A DNA stretch of 64,000 nt from Coniferiporia sulphurascens (taxonomy: Eukaryota > Basidiomycota > Agaricomycetes > Hymenochaetales > Hymenochaetaceae): contig NBBA01000006.1 of the NCBI GenBank assembly GCA_002794785.1, positions 1,984,001 to 2,048,000 on the forward strand. Reading direction: 5' to 3'. A program made the position numbers and the translations under genes. Position 1 is the first letter of the stretch. Each line of letters starts with the position of its first letter. Shown in pieces: positions 869-64,000 of the stretch. The notes under the pieces were generated by a model that saw nothing but the letters and a program-made list of their open reading frames with translations, made no database searches and was not told the DNA's origin.

Positions 869-955
869 TCATGTTTCTCTGTCACCACTAGGCAATTTCT
901 GTTAGTAAATTGATGAAAATCGTGATCGCCAGATCAACAGATTAGCAAGATCGAC

Positions 956-2061: not shown

Positions 2062-2069
2062 TATAAAAG
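2062..2069 (+). promoter_or_regulatory. LTR TATA box
   Basis: TATAAAAG lies in the solo LTR about 180 bp before its 3' end. The mirror copy is at 2494-2501 on the minus strand. This fits an RNA polymerase II promoter with the R region starting some 25-35 bp downstream. The two LTR promoters face each other across a 72-bp spacer. Confidence 0.6.
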
Positions 2070-2317
2070 CCCAACGTAAAATTGCAGTAAAAAGCAGTTT
2101 AATTCATCTCTTGTCTCTTACCACCATCATCAGCTCTAACACTCTAGCGAGTGAAGGGTAACAAGCCTACCCTAAACTAACTAGTATTACTGTGTGAATC
2201 TGTTATCACTTGTTTCAATCCCTTACTCAGGGAGCGAATCTAACAATTTCAATCCTGATGCCTGTGACATTGTATATCAAAATTTCAATATTTATGTTGC
2301 ACTTATGCAATGGGAGC

Positions 2318-22745: not shown

Positions 22746-23471
22746 TCGCTCATAGTCGTGGTTAAATTGGGAAGGTTAAGTTCGACTTTTGCAAGTTTAT
22801 GCCGTAATCATCATTTGTCATATCGAGCAAGCCACAGCCCCTTCCCCGCCGCCGTTGCCATTCAGTACGACCTGCGAAATAAAGTGGTTACATGCCATAC
22901 GCAATGGACAGAAGCACTGCTTCGATCCCACAGCCCATTCGGAATCTTGCGTTACAATCGCGGCAACAACAGCCTCGCCGTATAGCTAGGAGGCAGTCGC
23001 TAACTACTGTGTATAGATACATCGTTCTTGAAAAACACATACGATATGAGTTGCAGGGGTAGAAAACAAAACTAGAGGCCAATTTATATGAGTTACAGGA
23101 TGCCGTGAGTATACTATATCTATAAGAATGCGAATCATATGCGGTTAGAGACGATGATATGATGATATCGTGACAGTAAATCCAGGATTGAATAGGAGAA
23201 GAAAAATGTTTAGATGTGTCCACCGGGTGAGAAAATGCGGTAAGTCTTTGTCCCGTGCGTCGATAATAGTGTGTTGTACGATATGGTAGAAAAAGACCAA
23301 GTCTAAAGGTCAGACCGTCACGCTGCATCGCTACAATTTCCAGATGCCATCGACAGGCCGTAAATGGTCTTTGCACTGTTTCGGGTGCTCCGCCTCCTAG
23401 TAGTGTTGTCACTCTCACCGCGTTGCCCGAGGTCGGCAGCTGTACCTTTCCGAATTAGTGTATCCCTGCGC
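22746..23471. other. Intergenic, no gene seen
   Basis: Several short frames on both strands without recognisable domains. It lies between the 3' end of the FunK1 gene and the start of the truncated FunK1 copy. Confidence 0.5.
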
Positions 23472-25784
23472 CTAATCCACGTGAAACCCACGGCCTCTCT
23501 GCCCCATTCCGGATATAATCCGTGCTCCCTTTAAGCGTTTGGTTGGCGGATGCGCCTCAGTCTTCGAGGCATCTTCCTTATCACGAGTTCGCTTCAGTCT
23601 GTTCAATGACTTCTTCGAGTAACCTATTTCGGTCCCAATATTGACAGCGCGCTGGGGTTCCCAAGGTTGCCTCGTTTCTAGTCGCAAGGCAATCGGATCG
23701 TCTTTCAGCAGTACGATCCCATCGAGTAAGAGACGGCTCATCGCTTCGTGGCAATGGTCCTCGGGAAGATCATATTCTTTCCACAAAGCCCATTCAACCG
23801 CGACGTAACACGTTAACAGGCACATCATCTCGCACATAATACCCAGACAAGGGTGAAGAATCTCCAGCCATTCCTCCACTGTTGTTGTGCGGAGGATAGT
23901 ATCCCTGGTATCTGTAGCCCCCTCCTCGAAGGTATGCCATTTAAACACCCTCATCAAATGTTCAGCCTTTTTAGATATTTGTTTCTCCTCATTTACTGGC
24001 CAGGCGTGGAGAACTTGGTAGACAAGCACCCAGTAAGCGGATTCGACATCGTGGCAGCCGCAATGTTCTACAGGAACTTTTGCCGTTATAGGGATACCCT
24101 TCATAGAAGGCGTATTATTGATGGCATTGCTGTAGAAGTCGTACTTTTCAGAACCGTATGCCTTCAAGTAGAGCTCTTTGGCTTTGCCCAACAATTCCGG
24201 AAATTATCCCAATCGATCAGCATTCCTGCTTCCTTCACTTCCGTCCTAAACAGTGCGCAACATTACGACCAACCCCATGATAAATAACATGGGCTGCACG
24301 TACTTCGAAGGATCAAGGACCTGATTTATAAACTTCACGTCAGGATAGTCATCCAATTTCGTATCGTGGTGAATCGGATCAATAAGGATATTGTTCTGGC
24401 TTATATCGCGATGCAGCGTCCGTTTCTTCAGAAGACAGAGTCTGTGTCCTTTTATAAGATACAAATTAGCACCATATCACACAAGAAGCGGGGAAAGCCA
24501 GCTTACCCTGAAGGCTGTCATATAAGACCATTAATAATTGACGTACAGATGTTCGCTCCGCTAGGGGCTTCCCTATACTCTTCAAGACAGACCTCTGCTT
24601 CTCACGACGCGGAGCGGAGCGGTCACCACTCACAGTCTTTATCACTGTATCCGTTCCGGAGTGCACGTCAGTTGTTCTCAGGGGAACTTTAGTATTGTCA
24701 TTGTCCATCAAAACCGTCTCCGAGAAATCAACTTGTACCACACCAGGAACTCCTTTGATTCTCTCAAGAATGGCTGATTCTTTGAATCGAGGACGCATAT
24801 CTCTCCACTGATCTTTGATGATTCTCTTTGCGGCTTCGTCAACGAAAACACACGTTTGCCTCCCATGGGCAGACGACGCGAACAAAACCTTTGCCCTAAA
24901 AGCATTTTGTTTCGTGTGGGTATTGATAATCCACCTTGGTGACAACGACCGACCCAGGGATAGAGACATGGTGTGGTCTCGCGAAGGAAGGAGAGGGAGA
25001 GGGTGCCATACGGTACAGACATAGCGTAGCAAGACCGACCAGTTTGTATCTTTTGAAAGCCAGTATAGCCGAGAGCAGAAAATTCCAGATGTATCGGACC
25101 AGTGGAGACGAAAGCACAGGGTCTCCCAGCTAATATACAGCATGCCAGCCAAGTCTGGTCGGGCACGAGGCAGGAGTTGTAAGCAGGAGATGGTTTGACC
25201 ATCGCCATCATCCGCTGGTTTGCACTTAACCTCGCCTAGAGAGACGATCCGATTCCAGTAGATTGGACCAGAGAATTTACCATCACGAACAACTTTCTTG
25301 GCCTGTTTGCGTGTAGAGATGACAGAGGAGATGTCGAGTTTCAAATCGGAGCCATCAAATGTTCTTTTGCAGCCCGCATCCCTTGTATTGCAAAATACCA
25401 GGCATTGAGCTACTGCGAATGAAAGTTAGCGGACAGAAATAAGCAGTGGCTTAGCATGGGTTGCTCACTACTATCTTTGTTCGACTTGCTCACTGAGAGA
25501 CTTATCTTAGTCAGTAGCCTGCACACAAGCAGAGAAAGTCTTGCTTTCTCCTTTCCTGTCATTTCATTTGAAATGTTCTTTTTGAATGTCAACCAATCCG
25601 AAGGCATATCCACCGCGTCCGACTTCTGCAAGTAATAGTAGATCTCGAATCGCTCAACCTCGGCGACGTGTGCATCGCAAGACATGACCACAAGCTTGAC
25701 GGCACCGAGGTAGCCGAATTTCCGTATGTGTTTTTGAGGTACTAGATCTGTCCCGCGAAAGGACTGGTTATGGTCGTCGTTCAA
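23472..25784 (-). CDS. FunK1-type protein kinase, with one apparent frameshift
   Basis: FunK1 is a eukaryotic-type kinase family expanded in Agaricomycetes. Exons 25469-25784, 24507-25412, 24304-24448 and then 24245 leftward join in frame. Landmarks are: SDWLTFKKN in the N-terminal region; SGPIYWNRIVSLGEVKCKP; LPRARPDLAGMLYISWETL; LHWSDTSGIF; FVDEAAKRIIKDQWRD; GVPGVVQVDFSET; TLHRDISQNNILID, the HRD-x4-N catalytic loop; GMLIDWD, the metal-binding Asp in place of DFG; CHDVESAYWVLVYQ; and a basic C-terminus (KRLKRTRDKED, PTKRLKG). At about 24195-24205, after LIDWDNFR, one base seems to be missing. The downstream frame, LLGKAKELYLKAYG, is otherwise open to the stop at 23472. Either the gene is newly broken or this is a sequencing error. 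Substrate unknown. Confidence 0.8.
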
Positions 25785-26025
25785 GTTTGAGAGTTAAGTT
25801 CTCTCGAAGTTCGACTTCAACCTTGAGATTTCGATGAAAACGGTAACTACGTGACACGATAGTGCGCGTGTGACAGCAGCGCGTCAAGGTCACCCGGGCC
25901 GACGTCCAAATTTCCACTTGAATTACATTCATCGGTATTCAACCCAGGCGTCCGGGTTCAAAACTCTCGTCTCTTAAAAAACTTCAAGTTCAATACCACG
26001 TCTGAACACCAATTCCGAAGAAAAA

Positions 26026-27131
26026 ATGCGGCCCTCGTCGCCCTCGATTCCCGAGCGTGACTTTACGCTCGAGGCGCTCAAGCAGTCCTTGCGCGTCGAC
26101 GGGCGCAGCCCTCTCGACATGCGTCCCGTCGAAATCGCCTTCGGGCCTGAGCTTGGTTGGGTAGAGTGCGCGTTGGGAAAGACGAGGTGTGTCGGCCGTT
26201 ATACGGCTCCGAGAATGAGAACGCACTGTTGATGGCATTCTGCGAACAGAGTACTCGCGCAGGTGGACGCGAAGATGGTGAAACCACCGGAAGACCGACC
26301 GCTCGAGGGAATCATCAGCATACACTCGGAGATCTCCCCGATGGCGTCGAGCGAGTATGAACCTGGCCGGTAGGTGCGTATGCCCTCGCGACGCAGGCTG
26401 AATGCGCGCTGATATGCTCAACTCTTCCGTATACAGTCCGGAGGAGGAGGAGGAGGTTCTGATCACACGAATGCTGGAGAAGGTACTGCGCAGGAGTGAC
26501 GCGGTAGACAAAGAGTCTCTGTGTGTGCTAGCGGGGCAGCGGGTTCGTCGCGTCGTCTTCCCCGTCTTTGTTACCTTTTTTTAAGTCCACCATTTTATTT
26601 TTACGTAGGTTTGGCATTTGCGGTTGACGATGCACTACCTCGCAGACGCAGGGAACATGATGGACTGCGCTTGTCTGGCCGGGATAGTCGCCCTGAAGCA
26701 CTTTAGGAGACCAGAGGTCGAGGTCATCGGTGACGAAGTCACGATCGTAAGAGCATATTCCGGCTTCTCTCTAATATTACTACTGTTTGACGATTCTCCT
26801 CCAGCACCCGCCGACTGAACGCGCACCCGTTCCGCTTTCGCTGCACCACACGCCGTTCTGCCTGACGTTTGCGTACTTCGATGCCGAGGGGACGCCACCC
26901 ATCCTGGACCCGGCGCGGCTCGAGCAGACGCTTGCGACGGGCACGCTCTCTGTCGCGCTCAACGCACAACGCGAGCTGTGCGTCGTGCAGAAGGCGGGGG
27001 GCGTGCCGCTCGCCCCGGACGAGATTGTGAGGATTATCGAGGTGGGCGTCGTGAAGGTGCGGGACCTGGATGCGCTCGTCGAGGCGCGGCTGCGGGAAGA
27101 TTGGGCCGGCAGAAACGTGGAGGTCAGATAG
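26026..27131 (+). CDS. RRP45: RRP45 (EXOSC9), RNA exosome ring subunit
   Basis: Five exons (26026-26186, 26250-26369, 26437-26542, 26609-26746, 26805-27131) give 283 residues in one frame. RRP45 is an RNase PH-fold subunit of the nine-subunit exosome core, acting in nuclear and cytoplasmic 3' RNA processing and decay. Features include ERDFTLEALKQSLRVDGRSP at the N-terminus; a VLAQVDAKMVKPPEDRPLEG strand-loop; ISPMASSEYEPGRP; ESLCVLAGQRVWHLRLTMHY; LADAGNMMDCACLAG; and IHPPTERAPVPLSLHH. The length is usual for fungal orthologues, and the catalytic residues of bacterial RNase PH are not expected. The gene looks intact and single-copy, a housekeeping anchor between two conflict-type gene clusters. 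Confidence 0.92.
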
Positions 27132-27159
27132 TACTGTATTTACTGGTAGGCCACTGAGA

Positions 27160-27880
27160 CCAACTTATTTACCATCCATGGCGGAGCGTTCAAGAGAGTC
27201 ATAGTTCGAGACGTGATGAGTAGCATGTTGGGCGCGCAGGGCTACGGTCCGCACTTTGTAAAAATGCTTTATCGCAATATGCATCTATTCGTCAATACCG
27301 TACGAGGGAGCTGAAGAAAGCAGCCTCGTTTAACTTTTTCGCAGCTATATAATGGTAATTACTTACAGCCGATTCCCCTTTTTATAATCGTGTTTTAACC
27401 TTTTCAAACACTGTAGTCAGGAACTAAATAATAATAAATTAGTGTACATGCACCTAAAACATGGATATACACCGTTGAGGGGGGGGAAAGAAAAATAAGG
27501 TGAACAAATGCGACTTTCGTGGCTTCGTCATACGGTCTAATGATCCGTTAACCAGCCTTGTACTTTTTCTACGGTCACTTTCTTGCGTTCATCCTCAGCA
27601 GCCTTCCTCAAATCCTCCGACTTCTTTTGACTAGCGTACCGAAAAGCCATCAACATGTCAAGCGTGTCTATGTCGTCGTATTCTTCGTCCTCAGACATTC
27701 CCTCGGCCCGATTCTGACGCCGCTCACGCCGCTCTCTTGCTCGTTTCTCTTTCTTCTCTTTCCGCGCTTTCCTCCACTCCTCCCTTCCTTGATTCCGTGT
27801 ATCCCGAGGATAATACTTGTCCTGCGTGTGTCGCTTTACAGTTGCCAGTGCCGAGGGAGGCGCCCATGCATTAAGGGCCG
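27160..27880 (-). repeat. Duplicated segment, copy 2
   Basis: Counterpart of 20960-21765. It includes the 3' end of the intact HNH gene and about 380 bp downstream of its stop. A run of eight G near 27480 interrupts the similarity. Confidence 0.85.
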
Positions 27881-28771
27881 CGCTTCCATAAATCATGGAG
27901 TAAATCACTTCCGGAGGTCGCGTATCTTCGTTCAAGAAAGCCGCAGATTTGCCGTGACTAGCGAGGACCAAAAAATCCGGACCACGTTGCTCAAAGCAAT
28001 GAAGAGTAACAAGATATGCCTCGGGGTCACCACCCTGAACGATGTCGTCCGTTTTGAGTATGACATTCGGTGTCTTAATCAGACGCGTCGATAAGTAAGG
28101 ACTAATCGTTTAGGTAAAGGATCGTACCTGTAGGAAGGCAATCATACGCTTATCTAGAAGTCTATGAAGATGAACCCACAGAAAAAGCATGTTTCGGATG
28201 TCGCTGATCTCTTCGATGACTGTAAGACCTGCGCTTCGTTCTTCGGTAAGACGCTTTATATACTGATAACGTAGAGTTAACCAGTGAGGTTATAATGGTC
28301 ATCGAAGATATGACTGACTGCGTCTCCCTTCACGTGTGGGATAAGATGACAAGCGTCGCAGAGATCTTCCGCGGCTCTCGAGAAAGGACACGCTCCGTAT
28401 TGCACGATCAGTTCGTTCCGAATCGTCGTACTGCAACCACTTTGAGAGGAGTGCTCGCTCGTGACCTTACTTATGACATCGGGATCAGCGAAATGAGTAG
28501 CGTTGGTGGCATGGAAGTAGTAGATATCTCCAGCGTTGACAAGGTCATCCAAATCACAAGGAATTGACTTGTCCTGAGTGAGGGTAAGAACACCCACTGA
28601 ACCCGTCACAGCGTATCCCAGGTAGCTTAGCCATTTACGCGGCTTGACTGCATACAGAGGGAAGAGGTCCGGGGGAATAGCCAGAGCAGTAAACCAGTTC
28701 GAGTCTTCTTCTTCAGAAGCGAATCGGAGGTTTAGCGATACCAGAGTGTTATTCAACGACATGGTGGACAC
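27537..28771 (-). CDS. HNH endonuclease domain protein
   Basis: Three exons (28282-28771, 28128-28240, 27537-28073) give 379 residues; the first intron would be only 41 nt. The HNH_2-type core RNELIVQYGACPFS, then CDACHLIPHVKGD, then HIFDDHYN, lies at about 125-163, and the second part ISDIRNMLFLWVHLHRLLDK follows as in fungal HNH_2 proteins. The His of ACHLIP is the likely metal-binding catalytic residue. The C-terminus is charged: a long basic helix (KARKEKKEKRARERRERRQ) and an acidic DEEYDDIDTLD, ending KVQGWLTDH. These proteins are numerous in Agaricomycetes and mostly of unknown role. Its tail is duplicated at 21.4 kb, fused to a FunK1 remnant. Confidence 0.82.
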
Positions 28772-31879: not shown

Positions 31880-34330
31880 GCCGGCAGATCCCGGAATAAT
31901 TGCCTGGAAAATCATGTGGTACTGGTACCTGGATTGCGCATCGTCCTTTGTACTACCCACTGCCAGTCATCATGGCTGACTCTGAGTCCAGGATCGTTAT
32001 CATGGACATGGACTCCGGAAACTCAAGTTGTTCTTAGCATTTTTTACCGTATCGATTGGGTTTAATCGCCATCCTCAGTCCTCTGCGTCTGTCTGCCTTT
32101 CGGACCTTGGTCGGACATCATCAGACCCATATGGATTTCTGGAAGTACAAAAAGTTACGGTGAATCACGGTTTCGCTCCTTTATCGCAACGTCCCCTTTG
32201 ACCACTGCCATCCCCTCTAATCCCAGGCTCGGTCTTTGCCTGAGGCTAAGCGGTGCCCCAGCATTGTCTCTGGTCGCCATTTTTCACCTTTCACATCGCC
32301 TGAGACTCTTATAGCTGGTCGGATCTCGAGATCTCCAAATGTCCCGAGTCGTCGGGGGTCGACTTTCTCCGAACATGAAGTAACTCGCAAAAAATAAAGA
32401 CAGGTGAAGAAACCAAAGGTTTGTAGATAAATGATCTGGGATGGGAACTGAGTAGAAACTTGTCTGAATGATGGGTTAACCAGTACCAGGAATCGCGACG
32501 ATTCGTAAGTTATACGTCTAGTCGACTGTAGAGTACACTGAAGCTAATGCAATTCAGAATACTCTTCGGGCGACTGTAGTGGCCCGCGGTGGTCTTTTCC
32601 CGTAACTTGGGCATGCCTGAGCCTTTGCGGGTGCTGTTGATCAAGGACGACGTGAATCAGGCAATAACATTCAACGATATTGCGGTCGCGCCTCCTTCAG
32701 GACTATGGGCGTGCTCGATGCGCTTCCTCGGCGGGGCGTCCTCAGGTGCGTTGTCCTCGAAATCTCTTCGCGTTCTCTTGCTTCCTCGCTTCGGCTGTTC
32801 CTTCTTTTTCTCTCTCGTTGTTCCTTTGCCCATGACGGGGAGCATCTCTGGCTGCCTGCGGATGCGCAGACGGGGAATTGGAGTCTCCATAGAGACGAGC
32901 CTTCTGCGTCTCAACTCGCGCATCCCGTCTGGAACCACTAGAGTCGGAGGGATAGGCTCGTCGGCACGACCTTTTCCCTTCGCTTGACAGGAGATCGCGG
33001 CTGCACCATCGCATTTTTCCGCCCTAACCAAAAGACGGACGCGAGGTCGGGATATTTCTGGAGGGTGGGCCGCGAGCTCATCTACGTCGCCCCAGGGGCG
33101 AGTGGGTTTACCAGTCGCCTTGTCCGAAGGAGCGGTGTCAGTGGCGCTCTCCTTGCGTCTGTCCTTGCGTTTCTTCGCTTCCGCCGAAGGACCGGCAGGC
33201 CTTTTGTTTTTGTCTGACTTTGCCCACGCCTTATGGGCACGGGGTTTTTGTTGCTTAATGAACTGACCTAATTCTGGTTTGTTGAGGGCTATATGGTCAG
33301 GAAGTGCGTTGAAGAGGGGCCATACAAAGGCATATCGCATGCTCACCCTTTTTTTTAGTCTCTTCGGCTTTGCAGCGGCTGCTTGGGACCTTCGGGTTAT
33401 CTCTGGTTTTGTTAGGTTGGAGAGCACCGTTGCTCTCTAAGCCGTTATATACGCTGCCGAGGGCAACGGCGCCTTCATCCACAATTCCATAGATACCGTC
33501 TTTGGTCTCGGTTGTATCGTCTGCGGTGTCTTTAACTTCCCCAAGCCTCCGTAACCTTGCTCGTTCAGTATCGACTACATAGAGCAGCGCTCGAAAAGCA
33601 GTAATGCGTCCTTGAGGGACGACATGCTGTTGGCGCAACGATGTCGGGTCATTCGTTCTGCGCGGCAACTCCGCTTCCTTCATCCTAACGATAACTTTTG
33701 CCGCAGAGACCGTCCTAGCTGCATTGGTTTGGCCGCGAGCATTATGGTTAGGTTGTTCCATCCTAGCATTAGTGTGTCCCAAAACGAGGCCCTCTCGCTT
33801 TCTAGTTGCTGAACGAAGATTCATGGGCATGTCGATTCACTGACGAGGTTAAACGCAGACAGGTGAAGTCTCGAGGGATTATAAAGAGAGACGCGGCAGT
33901 GGTGGTTAGAGTGGGAGATGACAGGCTTTCGACCACTCGGCGGGTCGAGTTACTTTTCAACGACGGACCACGCAAAAGCGGACCGCCTCGTGCTCCGGTG
34001 GTTTGCGGTGTAGCTAAAGCTTGTATACTCTAATCCCTTTGTTCGGGTTTTTTGGCTAAGGCCCATTGTTCTATATCCAGTGGCGGCCGTGCCACGGTTC
34101 AAGTGGCAGGATACCGACTTTTTCCTTGGGTAAGACGTGTCAATTCCCCTCTCTCACAAAATAGAAAGCAGCGACATTGAAAACCTTGAAAACAAATTCA
34201 GAGACTCAAATTAACACTGCGAGATAGGGGGGACGGATAGGCAACTTGCCTAATGAGATATAAAATGGAGGTTTGGTGTGCATTTTGGGCGCTTCCTTGT
34301 TCCTCATTTGGTAGTCATCATAAACCTTGA
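31880..34330 (-). mobile_element. Novel repeated gene unit, copy A
   Basis: Read on the minus strand, the unit starts at 34330 with TCAAGGTTTATGA and ends near 31880. It shares with units B and D the start boundary, a CAAATAAGGAACAAGGAAGC module, an upstream GTATCCTGCC...CGTGGCACGGC block, the gene, and a 3' stretch containing GGTCAAAGGGGA, TTTTTGTACTTCC and GAGTTTCCGGAGTCCA. Its start boundary lies inside a GH53 gene. No terminal inverted repeat, poly(A) or transposase was seen. Confidence 0.75.
32657..33830 (-). CDS. Repeated-unit nuclear-type protein, copy A (unknown family)
   Basis: Exons 33347-33830 and 32657-33288 with a 58-nt phase-1 intron give 371 residues. It starts MPMNLRSATRKREG. 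Exon 1 holds an AKVIVRMKEAE motif, a VVPQGRITAFRALLYVVDTE segment that may be a short helical domain, and an acidic DEGAVALGSVYNG block. Exon 2 starts ALNKPELG and is strongly basic and disordered, with ISRPRVRLLVRAEK, QAKGKGRADEP, VVPDGMRELRRRRLVSMET, KKEQPKRGSKRTRRDFE and PPRKRIEHAH. The last two resemble nuclear localisation signals. No known domain is recognised. It is very close to copy B and clearly related to C and D. The frame is open throughout, so the copy could be functional. Confidence 0.7.
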
Positions 34331-35142
<812 letters not shown>

Positions 35143-43439: not shown

Positions 43440-43529
43440 ATGGCCTTGCTTAATTGGATAAAAATGGAGGTTTGATGTGTGTTTTGGGCGCTTCCTTGTT
43501 CCTTATTTGGTAGTCGTCATAAACCTTGA
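43440..43529 (-). repeat. 90-bp end fragment of the novel repeated unit
   Basis: On the minus strand it begins TCAAGGTTTATGACGACTAC at 43529, continues with the CAAATAAGGAACAAGGAAGC module and ends near AAGCAAGGCCA. It matches the first 90 bp of units A, B and D. Beyond 43440 the sequence is the AIF-like gene's intron. Confidence 0.85.
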
Positions 43530-43784
43530 TCCCTCGTCTACGGAGACGGATTCCACCGTCGGTTTTTCAGTCTTTCGGTAGAAGACATATGGCATAATGC
43601 GAGGAATGCTTTTACCATTCGTAGAAGTTACTTGAACCAAAAATCTTTTCACGACTTGAGCAGCTCCTTGAAATCGAAGAGTTCACTATGAGGCATATGA
43701 CAAAAAGACCTCTAAGACACCTTGTCAGGATTACGTCCGTCCTTTAATGATTGTTTTTTTTTTTTAAATTTTCCATGCCTGCTA

Positions 43785-47883: not shown

Positions 47884-50800
47884 CTAGGCGGCCTCCCGCT
47901 GCTCGCTCTTCCACTTGTCGTAGCACTCGAGGGTGACGCTCGCCATAAAGCACGGGATACACATCTCCTCGCGGATCCACGTATTCATCAATCCCTCAAG
48001 CTCACGCGGCCCCCCCTCTCCCGCCGCGATCAACTGCATCCGCGCGCCGTCCTCCGTCCCCGTCCCCGTCCCCGTCCCCGTCCCTACCCCTGCCCCCGCG
48101 CCTGTGCCGCTACCGCGCGAACGCGCAGAAGGCTGGAACACAAACGAAGCAGAGACATCATACAGACTCGTAATCCTTACCTGGCCATTCGGGTAAAACG
48201 CGAACTTGAGCCCGAGCAGCACCTCGAGCGCGTCGCGGAACTCGGCGCTCTTGCCCGCGAACACCTGCTGCAGTCGCAGGAGCCGCTTCTCGCGCTGAGC
48301 GAGTGCGCTTTGTAGCTCGTTCGTTTCTTCCCGTAGGACTTCGTAGCTCTCGCGCGGCACGTATTGTCCGTGCGTCCCTGCCCCTAGTGCCGCGTTTTCG
48401 GTGCCGATGCCGATGCCGGCGCCGGATTCGCCACTCGGGGAAGATGCTGCGGGCGCGCGCTTCTCAAGCTCCTCGATCCGCGCGAGGAGCGCCTCGTTCT
48501 CGCCCTTCAACCGGTCGAGCACCTCCTTACGCGTGTCCGCCCATGCCTGTGCGGGGTTTGCGCGAAGGCTTAGCACGCGCATGCCCGGCGGGACATGCCG
48601 TCCGCCCCCAATCTCCCCACCGAGCTCGAACAGCTTCTGCTCGAGCTCTTCGACGCGTGATGCGTGCGACGATACGCCTGCCTGTGCGTTCTTGAATGCT
48701 GGTAGTCATAGTCAAAAAGAAATAAGAGGGGGAATGAGTGCGTGATGTGAATGCCTGAGCCGAGTAAACGGAGTACATACCCTCTTCTAAGAGAGACGCC
48801 TTCTGTGCAAGCTGGTCCCACTGCTCCTGTGGTCTGCCGGATGCAGAAACCCCGACCCGCTGCAAACGATTCACCTCGTTCTCCAAAGACGCAGTCGTCG
48901 CCTTGTACTCTTCAAGCAAAGACTCGAGCTGAACGACACGCTGCTCAAGCTTCTCCCGCGCCTTCGTCCCGTCGCCCTCAGCGTCCTCAGGAGCGGCGTA
49001 CACCGCCTCCTCGCTCTTGTAGCTCGCCACAAGCGATTTCAGGAATATCACCTCGCGCTCCGCAAGTGCGCGGTCCTTTTCCTTGCGCGCCGCTGCATCT
49101 CGCAGCGTCTCTGCCTCCTTCCGCAGTACGTCGAGCTCGTGCGCGGAGCGTTCGGCCTCCTGACGCACGTCGGCGAGCTCGACCTCGCATGCGCGCCGCG
49201 AGGCTTTCAGCTGACCGTGTTCGTCGAGGAGCGCCGCGTGTGTCCTACGCAGAGTCGCCAACTGCTGTGTCACGCCCGTAGGCGTCCTCGACGGCGTGCC
49301 TCCACCATTACCACCATTCTCGTCTGTAGTCCGCATCGCACCTTGCTGTACCTCCCGCAGACGCGTCTCAAGTTCCCGTTCGCGTGCCACGTGAGCTGCA
49401 CCGGTCTCCTCGAGCTCTGCGACGCGCCGCCGAAGCGCATCCGCGCCAGCCACGCGACGCTCAAGCTCGCGTTTCTCCTCGCGCAGCACCTCCGCGCCCT
49501 GTGCGCGCGTGCGCAGACGTGCAAGTTCGCTCGTTAGGCGCGAGTTGGCTGATTCGAGCGACGCGAGGTGCGCGGTCTGCCGTGCGAGTTCGGCGCGCAC
49601 AATCGCTGTGTCCTTTTCGCGCTCGCGTGCGCGCGAGATGGATGCGGAGAGCGGGGCGGGGGATGCGGATAGCCCGAGGGAGGGGTTGCGTCGACGGGAG
49701 GGGGTACCGAGGCTTAGGCGGTTCTTAACGCGTGCGAGAGGGTCTAGGTGGGAAGCTGAGGCTGAGGCTGAGATGGAGGGAGAGCGGAGGGAGGGGGTCA
49801 CACTTGCAGTACCACGTAAAAGTCGTGTGGGTGTGCCCTCTTCAATTATGCTCATCGCGCTGGACGACGCGATGGATTCAGAGCGGGGGGTAGTTGGAGC
49901 GGACGGGGGTGAGGAGACGGTGTACGGAGGTGGGGCGCCTGGGTCTGGATACGCCTCGGCTTCAACCTCAACCTCAGGCTGCTTATCATCGACAGTAGCG
50001 ATAGCCGGTTGTAGAGCATTGGGGGAGGATGCGGGGATGGATGCGATGTCAATATCTTGAGTAGGAGTAGTGTCGCCAATGACATCGGCGTCGTTAGGTG
50101 AAGAGACGTCCGCGACTTCGCCGCTGATGCTGGTGGCCGCAGTCGTGGCAGGAGCGAAATTAACAGCCATGGACAGGTCGTCTTCGTCTTCATCGATCTC
50201 ACCGTCGGCGTCTGCATCGAGGTCGTCCTCTTCTTCTGAAGTGGTCCACCCCTGCATCCTCGGCACAGACTCCCATTCTGAGCCAACTGTGCCACTTACA
50301 GTTTCCTTCTCGTTCTTGTTCTCATTCTCGTTCTCCACATCTAATTCCGCCTCTTCTTTCACGTCCATGTCCACATCGACGTCCTCAACCTCCTCCTCCT
50401 CAAGCTCATCGCCATCCATTTGTTCGATGATCGCCTCCAGCTCCCTGATGCGATTCTCCTTCCCGCGTGCGCTTTCCTCTGCTTCGTCTCTTTGACTTTC
50501 GAGGAGTGTGACTTGCTGGTCATGCGTCGCAAGTTCAGCCTTCAGTGTGGCGATTTGAGACTGTGAGGTGTGGGATAGCTGGGAGTAGGCATCATCGAGG
50601 TCTTCATGGTCAGCCTCGAGATCCGCGAGTCGCTTTTTAAGAGAGGCCGACTCCACTTCGTACTCTTTCTGTAGAAACGTGTAAGAAAAACCTGATGAAA
50701 GGAGAGAAGACACAACGCACGGATAGACTTGCTAGCTCCTCCTCACAGCGTTTCCGAGACTCCCTCTCCTCCTCCTCTCTTGCTGCCATGAGCCGCAGGT

Positions 50801-54098: not shown

Positions 54099-54982
54099 AC
54101 GGGGTGAATACGACACGACTCGGACTCGGAGCGCTGAACTCGGGTTAGGGCTTGATGGTGGGCGAACCTCTCTCGTCTTGGGCAGGACTAGTATGCGTGG
54201 GGTATGACTACTATTAAACTACTATGGCCACTCCTGGATATGCATACACATACGATATATTATCACTTGCTAATTCGAACTCTGCTTCGGATTTGGATTT
54301 GGACTCGGAATCTAACCTTTTTTTTCGATCGCCGTTCGCTCCCTCGTGGATCGTGCTGTAAATTGTTCGAGTGACGCAACTAAACCCCCTTGTCCGGGCC
54401 GGTCCGGGATAGCCGCGCGTTCCGGATTTCGTTTCTAACCCTTGACAAAGAACCATCAAGGAACAAGGACTCGGAGCCTCTCCTAGAGATACGGTACACA
54501 ACGCAGAACGCGACCCAGGGCTGCTGCCAAGTGAGTCCTGACCGAACGGCGCTGTATGATTCCGAGTCGCTAGACCGTGACTGTCTCCCGGGCAGCCTGG
54601 CCCCGGGTGCATCGTATGTATGAATGACTACATAGGAAGACCCGGGGGCGAAGAAGACGTGGAAGAAGTCGGCGCAGGCTCGGACTTGGAAGGACGAGAA
54701 CTGGGTGACGTTCGGTCTGAGATAGACTTTTATTGAGTTTCCAGCGGCAGGGATTGTACTAGTATACGGGCCGGATGTGGTTTACGTACGGATTAGACTT
54801 GGGTTTGGATTTTAGTGGCCAAGAATAAAGCTTTATGAGGTATATTCAAAAGAATGGGTGTACACTCTACCTCGCATTCCTCTACTCAATCAGCGTACAT
54901 TATTCCATCTTCTACCAAGGAAATAAATAAAAAAATAACGGTAGAATCCATCCCCATTAGACATGAGAACGTGGTCCAGGGA
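54099..54982. other. 3' flank of the GH28 gene, no gene seen
   Basis: AT-richer DNA with short frames only. It ends at the start boundary of repeated unit B. Confidence 0.55.
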
Positions 54983-55289
54983 TCAAGGTTTATGACAATT
55001 GCCAAATAAGGAACAAGGAAGCGCCCAAAACGCACATCAAACCACCATTTTTATCCGGTTAGGCAAGGCCACTATCGGATTCCCTATCCTATCCGTCTCC
55101 TCTCACTCGCAGTAGCACTACCAGTGGAATAGTAATCTGAGCCTCTGAATTTTATCCATCTAGGTCCTTCGTCGTCACCACTTCTAGTTTGTGAGAGGAA
55201 GGGGTCGTGTCTTACCCCCCAAAGAACAAGTCGGTGTGGTCAGTATCCTGCCACTTGAGCCGTGGCACGGGCCGCCACTGGAGAGAACA

Positions 55290-55535
55290 ATGGGCATTAG
55301 GCAGGAAGACGAACAAAGAGGTCAAAACTTACAAGCTTTAGCTACACCGCGAACCGGCGGAACACGAGGCGCTCCGCCTTTTCGTGGCCCGTGGTTGAAG
55401 AGAAACTCGACACGCAGAGTGGTCGAAAGCCTTTCATCTCCAACTCCAACCACCCACTACCGCGTCTCTCTTTATAATCCCTCGAGGCTTCACCTGTCTG
55501 CGTTGAACCTCATCAGTAAATCGACATGCCCATGA
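55290..55535 (+). CDS. Upstream short ORF of unit B, overlapping the main start
   Basis: An ATG at 55290 opens 81 codons (MGIRQEDEQRGQN, LQALATPRTGGTRGAP) that end at 55535, overlapping the main ATG (55526) out of frame. Unit D has a matching start at 61751 (MGVRQENEQRDQN) that runs in frame into its main ORF, and unit C has MRQKRTKDKTLQVLATPRN at 60326. The peptide start is thus conserved; it may be a translational control ORF or an alternative first exon. Confidence 0.4.
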   Translation: MGIRQEDEQRGQNLQALATPRTGGTRGAPPFRGPWLKRNSTRRVVESLSSPTPTTHYRVSLYNPSRLHLSALNLISKSTCP

Positions 55536-56705
55536 ATCTTCGTTCAGCGACTAGAAAGCGAGAAGGCCTCGTTTTGGGACGCACCAATGTTAGGATCGAA
55601 CAACCTAACTATAATGCTCGCGGCCCAACCAACACAGCTAGGACGGTCTCTGCGGCAAAAGTTATCGTTAGGATGAAGGAAGCGGAGTCGCCGCGCGAAA
55701 CGAATGACCCGACATCGTTGCGTCAACAGCATGTCGTCCCTCAAGGACGCGTTAATGCCTTTCAAGCGCTGCTCTATGTGGTCGATACTGAACGAGCGAG
55801 GTTACGGGAGCTTGAAGACGATAAAGACACCGCAGAAGATACAATCGAGACCAAAGACGGTATCTATGGAGTTGTGGATGAAGACGCCGTTGCCCCCAGC
55901 AATGTATATGACGGCATGGAGAGTAACGGTGCTCTCCAATCTAACAAAACCAGAGATAAACCGAAGGTCCCGAGTTATCTCTGCGGGGCTGGGGAGACTG
56001 AAGGTGAGCATGTGATATGCTTTTATATGTCCCCTCTCTAACGCACTTCCTGACCGCATAGCCCTCAACAAGCCAAAAGCAGGCCTTCCAGTGCTTGCAA
56101 TCGATCAATCAGTTAAGGACGAAAAACCCCGTGCCCGTAGAGCGAGGTCAAATAAAAGTAAAGAGCCTGCCGGTCCTTCTGCGAAGGAGAAGAAACGCGA
56201 GGACAAGGGCAAGGAGAAGACAGCCAACACTGGTCCTTCGGACGAAGCGGCTGGTAAACCTGCTCTCTCCGGGGACGACGTAGATGAGGTCGCGGTCCAC
56301 CCTCCAAAAATATCCCGACCTCGCGTCCGTCTCTTGGTTAGGGCCGAGAGATACGGTGCCGCGGCCACGATCTCCTGTCAAGCGAAAGGAGAAGGTCGTA
56401 CCTTCGAACCTGTCCCCCCGCCTCTAGTGGTTCCAGACGAGATGCGCGAGTTGAGGCGCAGAAGGCTCGTCTCTATGGAGACTCCAATTCCCCGTCCGCG
56501 CATACGCAAGCAGCCAGAGATGCTCCCCGTCATGGGTAAAGGAACAATGAAAGAGAAAAAGAAGGAACAGCCGAAGCGAGGAGGCAAGAGAACGAGAAAA
56601 GATTTCGAGGACGATGACGCACCTGAGCACTCCCCGCCGAGGAAACGCACGGAGCACGCCAGTAGTCGCGAGAGAGCCGGAACATCATTGGATGTTATGG
56701 CTTGA
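55526..56705 (+). CDS. Repeated-unit nuclear-type protein, copy B
   Basis: Exons 55526-56003 and 56062-56705 with a 58-nt phase-1 intron give 373 residues. It begins with the same MPMNLRSATRKREGLVLG as copy A. PTSLRQQHVVPQGRVNAFQA and LLYVVDTERARL follow in exon 1; ALNKPKAGLPVLA, ISRPRVRLLVRAE, VVPDEMRELRRRRLVSMETP, KKEQPKRGGKRTRKDFEDDD and PPRKRTEH follow in exon 2. Composition is basic with acidic patches and Ser/Pro-poor linkers. Fully open. The family is unknown to me; DNA or chromatin binding is a guess from charge alone. Confidence 0.7.
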
Positions 56706-57849
56706 TTCACTCCATCACTAATCGACAACACCCGCTAAGGTTAGGACATGCCCAGGTCGCGGGCATAAACCACTACAAGTCGATGTAATCGGGAGATGAA
56801 CGTTCTGTGCCCCTAATATTTATTTTCACTGTTTTAGCTTAGACATGACCGATTAGATTGGATGTACAACTTACAGATGCTCGGACGTCCGCAATTCCCT
56901 GTATTGAACAGCTTTCTGCTCAGTTTTCAAACCTTTACGGACCTTTGGACTCTTCACTTGTCTGCATTTCTGCGAGCTGGATCATCGTCTGCGTATAGCT
57001 TGCAACATAATTGCCACTGTTTTGCTGAACAAAAACGAAGTCGTTTCTCGCCAAACAATCGGGCACCGACCAGCTGTAGGAGTGTAAGACGACCTATGAG
57101 TGGTGATCGGCGATGACAGACAATGTAGGGGCGCTTCTCACCACCGAGCGGATATGGGATATGAGGACGAGAGGGGACGACAGTGGTCAAAGGGGAAGTT
57201 GTGCCAAAATGATAGCGAAACCGCGATTCACCATAAGTTTTTGTACTTCCAGGAGCCACACATGGGCCCGACGTCCGATAAAGGTCCGGAGAACAAACGC
57301 AGAGGGTGACAATTAAAACTCATCGATACAAAGGAAAGATGAGAACAACCTGAGGGGGAATGAGAATGGCCATGAGTTGCCAGCACACGAGAGTTTCCGG
57401 AGTCCACGATAGCGATTTTGGAGTCGGCTATGATGACTAGCGGCGAAACTTTGAAAGTACAAAGGTCAAAGGACTGTACGGAATCTAGATAATCTAGGAT
57501 CTCTTGAGTTATTGAGTCGGTATTGTTGTAAAAATTTGCGAGGGCCCGTGGCGTACATTTGTCAAGGAATTATTCCGTGGGATTTACTGTAACGGACGCC
57601 AGCACATCCCGATTCGTGCGCTTTCCTCTTTCTCCACAGAGTGGACCACAGTATTCTCCGCAGCGAGGAGGGATATATTATTTACAATTTTATATATTCT
57701 CCCGTTGGTACTCGCTGCCAAGGGTTTTATCAAGCAGAGTACCATTCGCAAATGCGGTGAGTTTACTCCAGGTCTTATGCCTTGTGCTCCGCGGCAACGC
57801 CGGTGCTTGAAGACACGCTTGCGTTTTTGCAGGGACGCACTCTGCATGT

Positions 57850-60375
57850 CGGTCTCCGCATTTTTTTAAATCATATCGATTGAACTTAGTTGTCGGATTC
57901 TGCTTTTACCCTTCAACTTGATCGGACTTCACGGCCCAAGTGGAGAGGTGATACAAAGTACGGGGTGACACGGTTTCGCCCTTTGACAACTTCTTTGACC
58001 ACAATCATTCCCTCTAACCCTCCTCCCCCTCCTCCATACCTTTTCTCTGGGCTGAGGAGAGCCTCCGAATTTTCAGTGCTCGCCGTTTCTCACTTTTGCT
58101 GCCAAGACCCTTTCAGCTGATTGGATCGCGAAATGCCCGCGCGTTTGTCGAGAAACGAATTCTTTTCAACGAGACACAAAACAATAACAATTGTGTTACA
58201 AGCTATACGCAGATGATGAACCAATTCGCAAAATATAGACGGATGAAGTGTTCAAGAGTCCGTAAATAAAGGGTCTAATGATCCAGGGAGGGCTATCCGA
58301 GCGATGGGTTACCCGGGGCCAGAAATTGTGACGATCCGAGCATCTGTAAGTTATACATTCGCTACGAATTTAGGGAAACGTTGGAGCTGAAGCAATAGAA
58401 AATGAATATTAGGGACGAAATACGTCCAGACGAGTCCATCGTTCGATTAACGGCGATAGACTTTTCCGAAGAGCAGAGTCGTCTCAGAACGACGTAGCGG
58501 CCTGTTGAGTGGGATAGCCGCAGGCTGAGCGGGTACGAGATCTTGTGGAATCTGTTGATTAGGGACTGGCACGGCATGGAAAGCCGGAGGAAGTACCGCG
58601 AGATGAGCGGGAAGCTGCGGGGCTGCTACGATAGGTGGTGCTGCGGCTTGTTCTTCAGCAAGTGCTGGTCCCTCGACTGCAGGGACTGCGGGAACTTCTA
58701 AGACTGCGATTTCCGAAACTTCAGGAGCTGCGGATTCGTCAGCCTCGACTTCGAGCTCGACGGTGTGAGTTTCAGGGACAATGAGCGCAGCCTCTTCCTC
58801 TTCAGGAGCAAAGTGAGATTCGGGGGCCTCCTCTTCGGCAGTCTCTTCGGCCAATGGCTCCAGTCGCTGCTCGACTGCTTCCAGAGGAGTGTGAGCGTGC
58901 TTGCTGCGCTTCTTCGGAGGGGCATCCTCAGTTGCGTCGTCGCCCTCGAATTCGTCTCGCGTCCTTTTATTTTCTCGCTTTGGTTGCTCCTCCTTTTTGT
59001 CCTCGACTGTTTCTTCCTTCACAACGGGAACTATCTTCAGTTGTTTGCGAGTGCGAGTGCGGGGAGCCGGAGGCTCAGCAGAGACGAGCCTGTTCCCCCT
59101 CAGCTTACGCATCCCTTCTGGAACTACCAAAGGAGGGAGTGGCGAAGGGCTCCGCGGCTTAACCGTGGGTTTTACACCGCGGGTGCGTCCTTGAGAGGGA
59201 CCCGGAGCAGCATCGGGGCGCGCAGCATCGGCGACATTACCATCGGTAACTTTCTTGGCCTTTTGGCCGCGTCCTCTGCGTATCACGACATTTTTCGCTG
59301 GTGGATGTGGGGCTGGTTCGTCGGCACGACCCTTGCCCTTGGCTTGGCGAGAGTCGGCGGCTGCGGCTGCGGCTTTTTCTGCTCTGACTACAGCACGAGT
59401 ACGGGGTCGAGTTACTTCAGACGGATGGATTGTGGCCTCTTCGTCAGCCGCGGAGCGAATGGGCATATCAGGGTCTTCATCCGAAGGTCCTGTGCTAGCC
59501 GCCCTTTCCTTTCCCTTGCCTTTCTTTACCTGCGCAGGGCCTGCGGGGTTTCTGCCTTTCCCCGTTCTTGTCCTACGAGGGGGACCACTATCCTCTTCCT
59601 CGATCGCTCGACTATTCGCGAGCGCGGACACGCTGGCTTCCGGTTCGTTGGGACCTATCGTGGTCAAGAAGAGCGTTAGGGGGAGACTATACGAAGACAT
59701 ATTTCATTGCTCACCTTCGCTCACGTCATCCCAGGGTGAAATGTTGAGACCGTTAAGTACCTCGGCTTCGCCGGTGAAGCTCATGAAATCGGGGTACTCT
59801 AAGGGGTTGTTGGAAATGGGAACACCGTTGCTCTCTAAATTGCCGTTGTACACGTCAGCGAGGGCAACGGCGCCTTCTTCCACAGCCTCATAGACGACAT
59901 CGGTTTCGGACGTGTCGCCGGGGAGGACTGCAGTGTATGTTGCGGCATTATCAACCACAGGGACATTCGTTTCTGTGATGTCTGGGTAATGAATGTCGTG
60001 GTTAGGGGGCGCAACCCTACGATTCTGGTCGTGACGTCCCAAAGCGCGATTTGCGCGGAGTCTTTCCACGAAGCGAGGATGCATTGGCATGCTGATTAAC
60101 CTATGGCGCTATGACGCTCAAGGCAGACAGGAACAGGGTACAGTTATGCAGGTGCAGCCTCGAGAGAGGGGACGGGATGTAGTGGTTGGAGTTGAAGACG
60201 AAAGGATGCTGGGCCACTGAACGTGTTGATTTTTTCTTTCAACCACTCCGCGCGCCTCGTGTTTCCGGCATTTCGCGGAGTCGCTAAAACTTGTAAGGTC
60301 TTATCCTTGGTTCGTTTTTGCCTCACATTTGTTGTTCTTTATCCAGTAACGCCTGTGCACCAGAATGCCGACACA
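57850..60375 (-). mobile_element. Novel repeated gene unit, copy C (most diverged)
   Basis: Similarity to the other units runs from about 60375 (TATCCAGTAACGCC, against TATCCAGTGGCGGCC in A) through the gene to about 57850, including GCGTATAGCTTGTAACA-ATT, TTTCTCG-CAAAC and GGCGAAACCG...TACTTTGTA in the 3' flank. The TCAAGGTTTATGA start module is not present. This copy is older or lost its outer end. Confidence 0.7.
58447..60090 (-). CDS. Repeated-unit nuclear-type protein, copy C, long form
   Basis: Exons 59715-60090 and 58447-59654 with a 60-nt phase-1 intron at the same place as in the other copies give 527 residues. The start is MPMHPRFVERLRANRAL. Exon 1 keeps EEGAVALADVYNGNLESNG but lacks the VVPQGR segment. 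Exon 2 keeps VTRPRTRAVVRAEKA, QAKGKGRADEP, VVPEGMRKLRGNRLVSAEPP, KKEEQPKRENKRTRDEFE and PPKKRSKHAHTP, with an extra KNVVIRRGRGQKAKK block. It then continues for about 150 residues absent from A, B and D: an acidic, Ala/Glu/Pro-rich tail ending RPLRRSETTLLFGKVYRR. It may be the ancestral, complete form from which the shorter ones derive. Confidence 0.7.
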
Positions 60376-61156
60376 GGGCTCAGGGTCATCGGCGGACTCA
60401 ATAGCCTGGCCAAGCTCTCTGGGCTTACAGATACTGTGTGTCCCCCTCCTCACCAGCGGAAACCGGGCAGTTTTGGAAGCCTCAGGTCGGCCATACAGAC
60501 GGCAAGGAGGTTGTCATCAATAATCGTGGGTTGCTCGCCAAAAAAAAACCGTACGGCACGGGAAATGCCATTGACGCCGTTGAAATGATGCGTGTGGTCG
60601 AGACAGAAGACTCTATACTTTCCTCTTTCACAATGAGCTTTTCACAATTTCCATTCCTACGACATTCCATCAGACCGAATGTCACTTCCCGCGCCGTGCC
60701 GTGTAACATATTTAGATAAATAACAAGCCCGCTTATCCAGAAAACGATCAATTCATTCGGGGACTCTGAAGATCGGCACATCCTCTCAGGTTGTGAGCTT
60801 CAAAACGAATTCATCAGACCGAACACTACATTTCTCTTTCGTCATGTCGGCCGCTTACGGCATATGTACAGTGATACAGTATCCCAAAAATAATAGCAAG
60901 CACCGATCTTTGAATGTATGAGATTGAGTTTTGTGTGCGACAGTTGTTCTGTCAATAAAGTCTTTGCTCTGCAGAACTTGAAGCCGCTTAAGTTACTCTA
61001 TATTCGATGGAAAGAAATATTCGGTTTTGATTTTACCAGAACAAAGCTTCGTGACGTATTCAAAGGTACTTGTTCCTCTACCCAGTTATCATGCATTATG
61101 CTGTCTGTCTTCTTCCAAGAGACCAGGGAGAATAACGGTGGTCGAATCTGAGAGTA
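60376..61156. other. Intergenic, AT-rich, no gene seen
   Basis: Lies between the upstream end of unit C and the MITE. Only short frames without recognisable domains. Confidence 0.55.
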
Positions 61157-61431
61157 CAGTTAAACCTCCCATAACGGCCCGGGGTACCTCTCATAACGGA
61201 CAACCTCCCATAATGGGTAGTTTGGGGCTCCCACCAAAGTCCACGACAAAAGAACTGGGCATATTCATTGCTCAGAAAAATGAGTACTGCCTGTTTCACC
61301 CAAGCATGCTTTAAAATAAAAAGAAGTAAGTAATTACATAATAATTCGGACCTCTCGTAGTGGGATAACCTCCCATAATGAATGTATATTTCTGTGTTCC
61401 ACCGACCCCCATCCGTTATGGGAGGTTTGAC
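61157..61431. mobile_element. 275-bp MITE of the pogo/Tc1-mariner type
   Basis: Left end CAGTTAAACCTCCCATAACGG at 61157; right end CCGTTATGGGAGGTTTGAC ending at 61431; TA on both sides (61155-61156, 61432-61433). Internal copies of the ACCTCCCATAATG motif occur at about 61203 and 61370. No coding capacity. It ends only 11 bp before the start boundary of unit D. Confidence 0.75.
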
Positions 61432-61442
61432 TAGTGATAGGT

Positions 61443-64000
61443 TCAAGGTTTATGACGACTACCAAATAAGGAACAAGGAAGCGCCCAAAACGCACATTAA
61501 ACCTCTACTTCTATCCGATTAGGCTTACATCATCGGAAAGGGCCACTATCATATTCCCCATCCGTCTCCCCTCACTCGCAGTTGCCCCACAGTGAAATAG
61601 TGGTTTGAGTCTCTGGATCATGTCCTTCAGTGTCCTCCGTCTTCGTCGCCCTTTGTTTCGTGAGGGAGGGGGACGTGTCTTTCCTAAATAACGATGTGAT
61701 TAGTATCCTGCCGGCTGAGCCGTGGCACGGCCGTCACTGGATAGAGAACAATGGGCGTTAGGCAAGAAAACGAACAAAGGGATCAGAATTCACAAGCTTT
61801 AGCGACACCGCAAACCACCGGAGCACGAGGTGCTCCGCATTTTCGTGGTCCGTATTGGAGTGAACCAAACACGCCAAGTGGTCGACAGCCTTTCATCCTC
61901 AACTTCGATTACCGCCTCTGCATCTCCCTTTCCTCTTTCTCAAGCCTTCACCTGTCTGGATTGAAAACCGTCAGCAACATGCCAGTGAAGCTTCGTTCTG
62001 CAGCTCGAACTTGCAACTTGGCTGGGAATATTACCGCTAAGACGAAAGAAGTTGTGTTAGTGTATAAGACGAATGAGTTGGTATCGTTGTGCCAGCACTA
62101 TGGCGTTCCTCAAGGACAAGTTACTGCATTTCAGGCTCTTCTACATGTGGTTGACGCTGAACGAGCACGGCTACGTGAGATTGAGGAAAATAAGGACACC
62201 GCCGTCCTCTCAGGCGATACAACGGAAATCGACGACGACGTCTATGGAGCGGTGGATGAGGGCTCCGTTGCCCTCGGAGACGTACGCAACGACATTGGGA
62301 GCAACGGTGCTCAACAAAACCACAACCCCATAGATTTCCCCGTGGTTCCAAGTTATCGCTGCGGGACTGTGGAGCCTGAGGGTGAGTATGTGGCGTGCTT
62401 TCGTAATGTTTTCCCTAACGCAGTTCCTGACCGTGTAGCTCTCAACAAACCAAAAGCGGGTCCAGTGCTTGCAACCAGTCAATCGACTAAGGACGACAAA
62501 AGACGTGCCCGTGTGGCGAGGTCAAAGAAGAACAAAAGGCCTGCCGGCCCTGCTGCGGGGGAGAAGAAGCACAAGGACAAGACCAAGGAGAGGACCATGA
62601 ACACTGGTCCTTCGGACAAAGCGACTGGTAAATCCACTCGTTCCGGGGGTGATGTAGATGAGGTCATGATCCACCCCCCAGAAATATCCCGACCTCGCGT
62701 CCGTCTCTTCATTAGGGAAGAGAAATACAATTCTGCAGCTGCGATCTCCCGTCAAGCGAAAGGAGAAGGTCGTGCCGACGGGCCTAACCTTCCCCCTCTA
62801 GTGATTCCAGACGGGATGCGCGAATTGAGGCGCAGAAGGCTCGTCTCTATGGAGACTCCAATTCCCCGTCCGCGTATCCGCAGGCAGCCAGAGACGCTCC
62901 CCGTCATGAGCAAAGGGACAATAAAAGGGGGGAAGAAAGAACAGCCGAAGCGAGGAAACAAGAGAACGAGAAGAGATTTCGAGGACGATGACGCACCTGA
63001 GGACGCCCCGCCGAGGAAGCGCAGCGAGCATGTCCATAGTCCTGAAGGAGGCGCGGCCGCAACATCGTCGAATGTTATGGCCTGACCCACGCCATCATTA
63101 ATCAACAGCACCTCAAAGCCCCAGACCTGCCCAAGTTGCAAGGCATAAATCACCACAGGCGGCTGTGATCGACAGACGAACGTTCTTCGTCTCTAATATT
63201 CATTTTCATTGTTTAGCTTCGATGAATCCCTACATTAAACTGAATGTACAACTTACAAATCCCCGGTGCTTGTCAGCCCGTCACCTGGACAATTTTCGAC
63301 GCCGTTTTTCTTCCAGCCCTCTTATTTACGGACCTTTGGACTCTTCACCTGTTGATATTTTTACGATTTGATCCCTTGTCTGCCCATAGCTTGTAACATT
63401 ATTATTATTGTTTCGTTGAACAAAAATGAAGTCGTTTCTCGCCAAACATTCGGGCATCTCGAGACCTGACCAGCTGTAGGAGTGTGAGACGACATATGAG
63501 TGAAAGTCGGCGATGACAGACGTTTCAGGGGCACTTCTCACCACCGAGCAGATACCGGAGATGGGGACTGGAGGGGACGATAGTGTTCAAAGGGGAAAGA
63601 AATTGCGCCAAAGGAGCGAAACCGGATTCACCGTAAGTTTTTGTACTTCCGGAGCCACACATGGGCCCGATGTCCAATCAAGGTTCGGAGAGCAATCGCA
63701 GAGGGTGACAATTAAAAATCATCGATACAAAGGAAAGCCGAGAACAACTTGAGGGGGGATGAGAATGGCCATGAGTTGCCAGCACGAGAGTTTCCGGAGT
63801 CCACGATAGCGATTTTTGAGTCGGTTATGATGACTAGCGGCGAGAAGTACAAAGGTCAAAGGACTCTGTGGAATCTAGATAATCTGAGATCTTTTGAGTT
63901 ACATTAAATCGACCTTTCTGTTAAAATTTGCGAGGGCCCGTCAAGGAAATCATTCCGTGGGATTTAGCGGCGGACGCCAGCACATCCTAATTCGCGCGCT
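61443..64000 (+). mobile_element. Novel repeated gene unit, copy D (reaches the window edge)
   Basis: Starts at TCAAGGTTTATGACGAC (61443) and is collinear with unit B along its full visible length, reaching GGACGCCAGCACATCC at the last bases of the window. It contains all modules of unit B in the same order and orientation. Confidence 0.8.
61979..63085 (+). CDS. Repeated-unit nuclear-type protein, copy D
   Basis: Exons 61979-62381 and 62439-63085 with a 57-nt phase-1 intron give 349 residues. In this copy the intron contains no stop and could be read through. Start MPVKLRSAARTCN; YGVPQGQVTAFQALLHVVDA and EGSVALGDVRNDIGSNG in exon 1; ALNKPKAGPVLATSQ, ISRPRVRLFIREEK, QAKGEGRADGP, VIPDGMRELRRRRLVSMETP, KKEQPKRGNKRTRRDFEDDD and PPRKRSEHVHSPEG in exon 2. 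An upstream ATG at 61751 is in frame and would add 76 residues; I prefer 61979 because the MP(M/V)xLRSA start is conserved among copies. Confidence 0.7.
   Translation: MPVKLRSAARTCNLAGNITAKTKEVVLVYKTNELVSLCQHYGVPQGQVTAFQALLHVVDAERARLREIEENKDTAVLSGDTTEIDDDVYGAVDEGSVALGDVRNDIGSNGAQQNHNPIDFPVVPSYRCGTVEPEGEYVACFRNVFPNAVPDRVALNKPKAGPVLATSQSTKDDKRRARVARSKKNKRPAGPAAGEKKHKDKTKERTMNTGPSDKATGKSTRSGGDVDEVMIHPPEISRPRVRLFIREEKYNSAAAISRQAKGEGRADGPNLPPLVIPDGMRELRRRRLVSMETPIPRPRIRRQPETLPVMSKGTIKGGKKEQPKRGNKRTRRDFEDDDAPEDAPPRKRSEHVHSPEGGAAATSSNVMA

Follow-up and report, generated by a model that had tools for sequence, protein, structure and literature searches.

The analyzed window, 64,000 nucleotides (nt) of Coniferiporia sulphurascens (assembly GCA_002794785.1, contig NBBA01000006.1, positions 1,984,001 to 2,048,000 of the forward strand), contains genes of an unnamed fungal family with a single short intron. 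The genes described here are as follows:

32657..33830, minus strand: A1, type 1 gene, 371 amino acids (aa); exon 1 33347-33830, intron 33289-33346 (58 nt, phase 1), exon 2 32657-33288; surrounding homologous DNA 32022-34336.
55526..56705, plus strand: B1, type 1 gene, 373 aa; exon 1 55526-56003, intron 56004-56061 (58 nt, phase 1), exon 2 56062-56705.
58447..60090, minus strand: C2, type 2 gene, 527 aa, with the C-terminal tail PLRRSETTL; exon 1 59715-60090, intron 59655-59714 (60 nt, phase 1), exon 2 58447-59654.
61979..63085, plus strand: D1, type 1 gene, 349 aa; exon 1 61979-62381, intron 62382-62438 (57 nt, phase 1), exon 2 62439-63085.

Genome searches show 12 close copies in two tight clusters, C6:2.016-2.069 Mb and C24:174-213 kb, of the 39.3-Mb genome; one genome was analyzed, and all copy counts are lower bounds at the sensitivity of the searches. 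The original prediction of a four-copy family is therefore wrong as a general description, with at least 12 close copies in two clusters. The predicted phase-1 intron of 57 to 60 nt is found in A1, B1, C2, and D1, and all 12 copies contain this intron. Nine copies are open within their own branch, and three are broken. The family shows three branches, type 1, type 2, and type 3. Type 1 comprises A1, B1, D1, and G1, of which G1 has a broken frame, with splice sites intact in all four. When the nine open copies are placed in an unrooted codon tree, C2, E2, and F2 and W3, X3, and Y3 group, with A1, B1, and D1 apart. The type 2 and type 3 proteins have 515 to 553 aa, are net acidic, and end in the nearly fixed tail RPLRRSETTL..G+.YRR, built around PLRRSETTL. 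When one version of this tail was searched against the genome (E value up to 10), 10 matches were returned: eight copies of types 2 and 3, four of each and counting the dead ones, plus two distant relatives. No type 1 partner accompanies the type 3 copies on C24.

Type 1 differs from the other branches in its missing tail. A1, B1, and D1 stop at the same place (...NVMA or NVIA). The type 3 copy W3 contains the word ATGGTC at two places 334 nt apart, and type 1 reads from the first of these places directly into the sequence after the second, which is out of frame and leads to an immediate stop. Both words are exact in W3 only, among three type 3 copies. From the type 1 stop onward, the DNA matches the type 3 coding end in eight of nine pairings (63 to 71% over 89 to 108 nt), the comparison of D1 with Y3 being the one without a match. 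An old deletion of 334 nt that also shifted the frame apparently removed the type 1 tail, and the repeated word suggests that a microhomology deletion may lie behind the truncation. Middle stretches of types 2 and 3 are also missing from type 1. The remnant of the tail is seen in B1:

56697..56785, plus strand: last codons of B1 and, after the stop, the out-of-frame remnant of the C-terminal tail, 67% to type 3 W3.

The type 1 proteins are basic because the loss of the tail removed the acidic part, with net charges of +32 (A1), +16 (B1), and +15 (D1), compared to -17 (C2), -6 (E2), and -6 (F2) in type 2 and -10 (W3), -10 (X3), and -5 (Y3) in type 3. The description of the family as basic proteins thus holds for type 1, which supplied three of the four copies first noticed (A1, B1, and D1), and fails for the net acidic types 2 and 3.

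An additional feature of type 1 is a helix-like block of ∼53 aa in exon 1 (KTKEV...ENKD in D1). It has counterparts in A1, B1, and G1 and is missing from all six intact type 2 and type 3 proteins. AlphaFold2 predicts a helix at residues 45 to 75 of D1 exon 1 with low confidence. The block matches a 454-aa open frame on C23 (E value of 6.5e-10):

62039..62197, plus strand: type 1-only block in D1 exon 1, 53 aa, placed from the D1 start and the residue numbers.
L046:5107-6468, minus strand: coiled-coil-like gene on C23, 454-aa frame, with coiled-coil-like repeats recognized by eye.

In a reverse search at an E value of 0.1, the end of the C23 gene retrieved five matches, of which one was the gene itself and the other four were the type 1 copies. 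The likeness extends over 55 to 85 aa of type 1 exon 1 at 38 to 52% identity and, at the DNA level, over 101 to 155 nt of type 1 at 68 to 76%; in contrast, the remainder of type 1 gave no match to the C23 gene. Three frames of this gene show no Pfam match at an E value of 0.01. On the simplest reading, the block would have been captured from a C23-like gene. An ancestral block lost from types 2 and 3 is an improbable alternative. Capture and repeated loss look alike in a single genome and can be told apart only with the help of relatives; however, the block is absent from every intact type 2 and type 3 protein, the C23 gene holds it inside a much longer frame and matches, besides itself, only the four type 1 copies, and a tblastn search with the six type 2 and type 3 proteins leaves the C23 locus unmatched at an E value of 0.01.

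The ratio of nonsynonymous to synonymous change (omega) was determined by the Nei-Gojobori method, which ignores transition bias, and by maximum likelihood (ML) with a fitted kappa (4.2 to 6.6); the ML values are used here. Nei-Gojobori omega is 0.25 to 0.54 in nine pairs, and in each of them both other forward frames give higher values than the gene's frame. The mirrored reverse frame rc1, which has the same wobble position, shows values of 0.33 to 0.65 and falls below the gene's frame in one pair of nine, A1-B1. ML omega is 0.45 to 0.54 for type 2, with twice the log-likelihood difference (2dlnL) from omega = 1 at 18.5 to 30.0, 0.55 to 0.61 for type 3 (2dlnL of 18.0 to 26.7), and 0.71 to 0.74 for type 1 (2dlnL of 5.7 to 6.9), with kappa searched on a grid for 2dlnL. 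For types 2 and 3, an omega below 1 is supported in six of six group-by-frequency-model runs. Within type 1, the type 1-only block shows an omega of 0.47 (2dlnL of 5.1), and the rest of exon 1 shows 0.63 (2dlnL of 3.7). The Ka/Ks check proposed with the original prediction thus yields omega values below 1, by a small margin for type 1, the exon 2 of which (0.83) is indistinguishable from 1. All 29 exon-2 gaps in the nine open pairs are multiples of 3, as are 9 of 9 in type 1 alone. In type 1, this is also true for five of six gaps in exon 1, compared to 7 of 29 in the downstream and 1 of 14 in the upstream flank, with the reservation that these gaps are counted in three pairwise comparisons among only three copies and so are not independent observations. 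From these patterns, types 2 and 3 are concluded to be functional protein genes, and type 1 is probably functional yet weakly constrained.

The convergent type 1/type 2 pair occurs three times on C6. The paired unit and the upstream pieces associated with it are as follows:

54977..60431, no strand: convergent pair unit B1-C2, with the copies D1-E2 and, inverted, F2-G1.
54970..55071, plus strand: left end of the B1 upstream homology, common in part to A1, D1, and the solo copy.
43441..43542, minus strand: solo copy of the segment found upstream of type 1 genes, at 89% to 54970-55071, with no family gene attached.

The D1-E2 copy begins at 61440 and extends past the end of the window, and F2-G1 lies outside the window. 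One gapped alignment that spans B1 exon 1 through the upstream side of C2 runs along D1-E2 at 82.6% (4,845 columns) and along inverted F2-G1 at 81.5% (4,888 columns). The B1 upstream DNA aligns with D1 and G1 in further pieces. These long alignments across B1-C2 indicate that the two convergent genes, type 1 and type 2, were duplicated together. Part of the spacer between C2 and D1 has a match in the one between G1 and H2; together with the pair alignments, this means that C2-D1-E2 corresponds to inverted H2-G1-F2. The expected partner is missing on the 3′ sides of A1 and H2. Within a 103-kb stretch, all copy matches at an E value of 0.001 fall between 31.9 and 84.7 kb. The 5′ flanks of B1 and C2 are alike when inverted, as expected for convergent homologous genes. 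Retention of the intron in all 12 copies points to copying at the DNA level instead of retroposition, and processed retrogenes are ruled out, with no intron loss in any of the 12. The predicted local expansion in both orientations agrees with this retention and with the pair alignments.

Mosaic patterns are visible in type 1, in which 10 of 12 maximum chi-squared tests for mosaicism have none of 300 permutations reaching the observed value, the others having 1 and 3 of 300. A1 and B1 share 88 to 95% identity in three 150-column windows around exon 1 and 64 to 75% in the last three, where B1 and D1 share 82 to 91%. In the upstream DNA, the type 1 bin 401 to 500 nt before the start shows a divergence (K) of 0.13 to 0.26, compared to 0.36 to 0.76 at 301 to 400 nt (six pairs). 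This conserved far-upstream segment may contain a promoter element or be the trace of an old deletion. The type 3 upstream bins are mostly empty and were left out of the noncoding comparison.

The proteins match no known domain, as had been predicted. Pfam searches with five frames of the unit (E value up to 1) gave three weak matches, the best at 0.087 (DUF5308), and neither these frames nor three frames of the distant relatives (E value up to 0.1) gave a match above a curated cutoff. A PDB sequence search with the long frame of C2 gave no match at an E value of 0.1, and Rfam gave none over 54900-64000. The titles and abstract openings of the literature searched contain no description of the family. 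The nine open proteins have few cysteine or aromatic residues and near-zero or negative FoldIndex values (own script). In types 2 and 3, a basic middle lies between an acidic start and an acidic tail. With regard to the N-terminal signal peptide of secreted effectors, protein starts such as MPMNLRSATRKREG appear by eye to be charged and without a hydrophobic stretch.

The best explanation, held to be somewhat more probable than its negation, is a mostly disordered, charge-patterned, nuclear-candidate family that multiplied locally through segmental duplication, exchange, and gene death, in the manner of birth-and-death evolution. Segments of DNA, including the convergent type 1/type 2 pair, would have been duplicated inside two small regions, followed by sequence exchange between copies and the death of some genes. 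The composition of the proteins suggests a nuclear, nucleic-acid- or chromatin-binding role together with a partner-binding C-terminal peptide. Types 2 and 3 would act in the nucleus, bound to nucleic acid or chromatin via the basic middle (KKGKGKE, RPRTRA, RRRGRG, and KRTR), and would contact partners via two C-terminal features, the acidic tail and the fixed PLRRSETTL peptide. Type 1 would have kept the basic middle, lost the partner-contacting tail, and gained a helix; it would most likely compete with the full-length proteins or modulate them, or else be en route to losing its function. As a system, this is ordinary local gene-family evolution, with the remodeled type 1 branch as its most interesting aspect. 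It offers a compact example of a gene branch in which a deletion cuts off an acidic tail and a fragment related to another gene is added, with the net charge flipped and the frame still open in three of four later copies. The original observation is thereby confirmed in part, and its interpretation is partly supported.

Several points weigh against this explanation. The exon-2 omega of type 1 is indistinguishable from 1 (2dlnL of 1.2) and fits decay equally well, and the open copies used for the omega and gap tests were preselected, which favors intact frames. The mosaic signal loses strength in type 2 and is doubtful in type 3, and a similar signal can arise from variation of rate along the sequence. 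The mean predicted local distance difference test (pLDDT) values of AlphaFold2, 50.7 for D1 exon 1 and 49.7 for C2 exon 2 with one eight-residue helix, are weak evidence for disorder because the alignments held so few rows (three and four, the latter for C2 exon 2). Nuclear location, binding, and antagonism are suggested solely by composition. The decay of type 1 into truncated, nonfunctional copies, with only types 2 and 3 as real genes, is an unlikely alternative. It would fit the truncation and frameshift common to the branch, the broken frame of G1, and the modest support for an omega below 1 in type 1. On the other hand, three of the four copies are still open after a synonymous divergence of 0.25 to 0.47 (Nei-Gojobori), all four retain their splice sites, the exon-2 gaps preserve the frame in contrast to those of the flanks, and the type 1-only block appears to be constrained.

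The occurrence of copies in both orientations, the left end near 54970-54980 common to A1, B1, and D1, and the solo 102-bp copy could also be read as traces of a mobile element, a nonautonomous transposon carrying a host-like gene and inserting locally. This is very unlikely, since the scanned frames contain no transposase, integrase, reverse transcriptase, or element domain, the close copies are confined to two regions of the genome at the search sensitivity instead of being dispersed, pairs and a spacer piece were copied together, and the full-length branches are under purifying selection. The original prediction had named a match to a transposase or a characterized family as evidence against it, and none matched in the scans. 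Mosaic patterns and dead copies occur in fungal meiotic drivers, and the same patterns here, together with the threefold convergent pairing and the middle common to truncated and full-length forms, raise the question of a selfish or self-recognition pair, for example, a mutually dependent killer and antidote. Such a pair is the least probable of the readings: genes copied as one piece stay together without any dependence, A1 and H2 are partnerless on their 3′ sides, and the C24 copies of type 3 lie there without a type 1 partner. Scarcely more credible is an antagonistic module (driver/suppressor or regulator/dominant-negative) in which both the full-length and the truncated, helix-bearing half would be needed together and would have been copied as one for that reason. 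Mating-type homeodomain gene pairs carry a homeodomain in both genes and are arranged divergently; they were rejected as a candidate, as the Pfam scan of the B1, C2, and D1 frames found no homeodomain and the present pairs are convergent.

Fungal birth-and-death families, such as the fungal kinases of PF17667, expand locally. The present family resembles them in its clustered paralogs, dead copies, and exchange between copies, with nine open and three broken genes among the 12 and segmental copying. It differs in having no enzyme or known domain and is instead defined by low-complexity charged segments and the C-terminal tail. The motif PLRR[ST]ETTL provides a searchable C-terminal signature for a fungal family that matches no library used. 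The tail also identifies the two distant relatives:

C6:563724-566642: distant relative, 973-aa open frame.
C6:569005 upward: distant relative, 348-aa open frame.

Both share the tail PLRR[ST]ETTLLWG, a similar middle, and a GT-AG intron (57 and 59 nt) at a matching place by eye, of phase 1 in the first; they differ in showing only 25 to 33% identity to types 2 and 3 (composition adjustment off). The 973-aa relative (L047:1721-4642) contains an extra stretch at residues ∼250 to 563 that recurs at C6:479-586 kb, with internal stops in 11 of the 16 others listed. This relative looks like a fusion of another local family to the present one.

Neither the final 9.8 kb of C6 nor the 3.0- to 3.3-kb ends of C24 contain an array of three or more TTAGGG/CCCTAA units, which gives no indication of a subtelomeric setting. 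Elsewhere in the window, 20966-27881 contains diverged duplicated stretches with 71 to 82% identity in the longer pieces and includes a frame (24469-25425) with a match to PF17667, a family of fungal protein kinases. Between A1 and B1, frames at 47887-50731 match the mitotic checkpoint protein MAD1 (PF05557). A perfect inverted repeat at 900-3663, with arms of 1,346 nt identical at 1,346 of 1,346 positions and a 72-nt loop, may stem from a recent inverted duplication or from a fold-back in the assembly.

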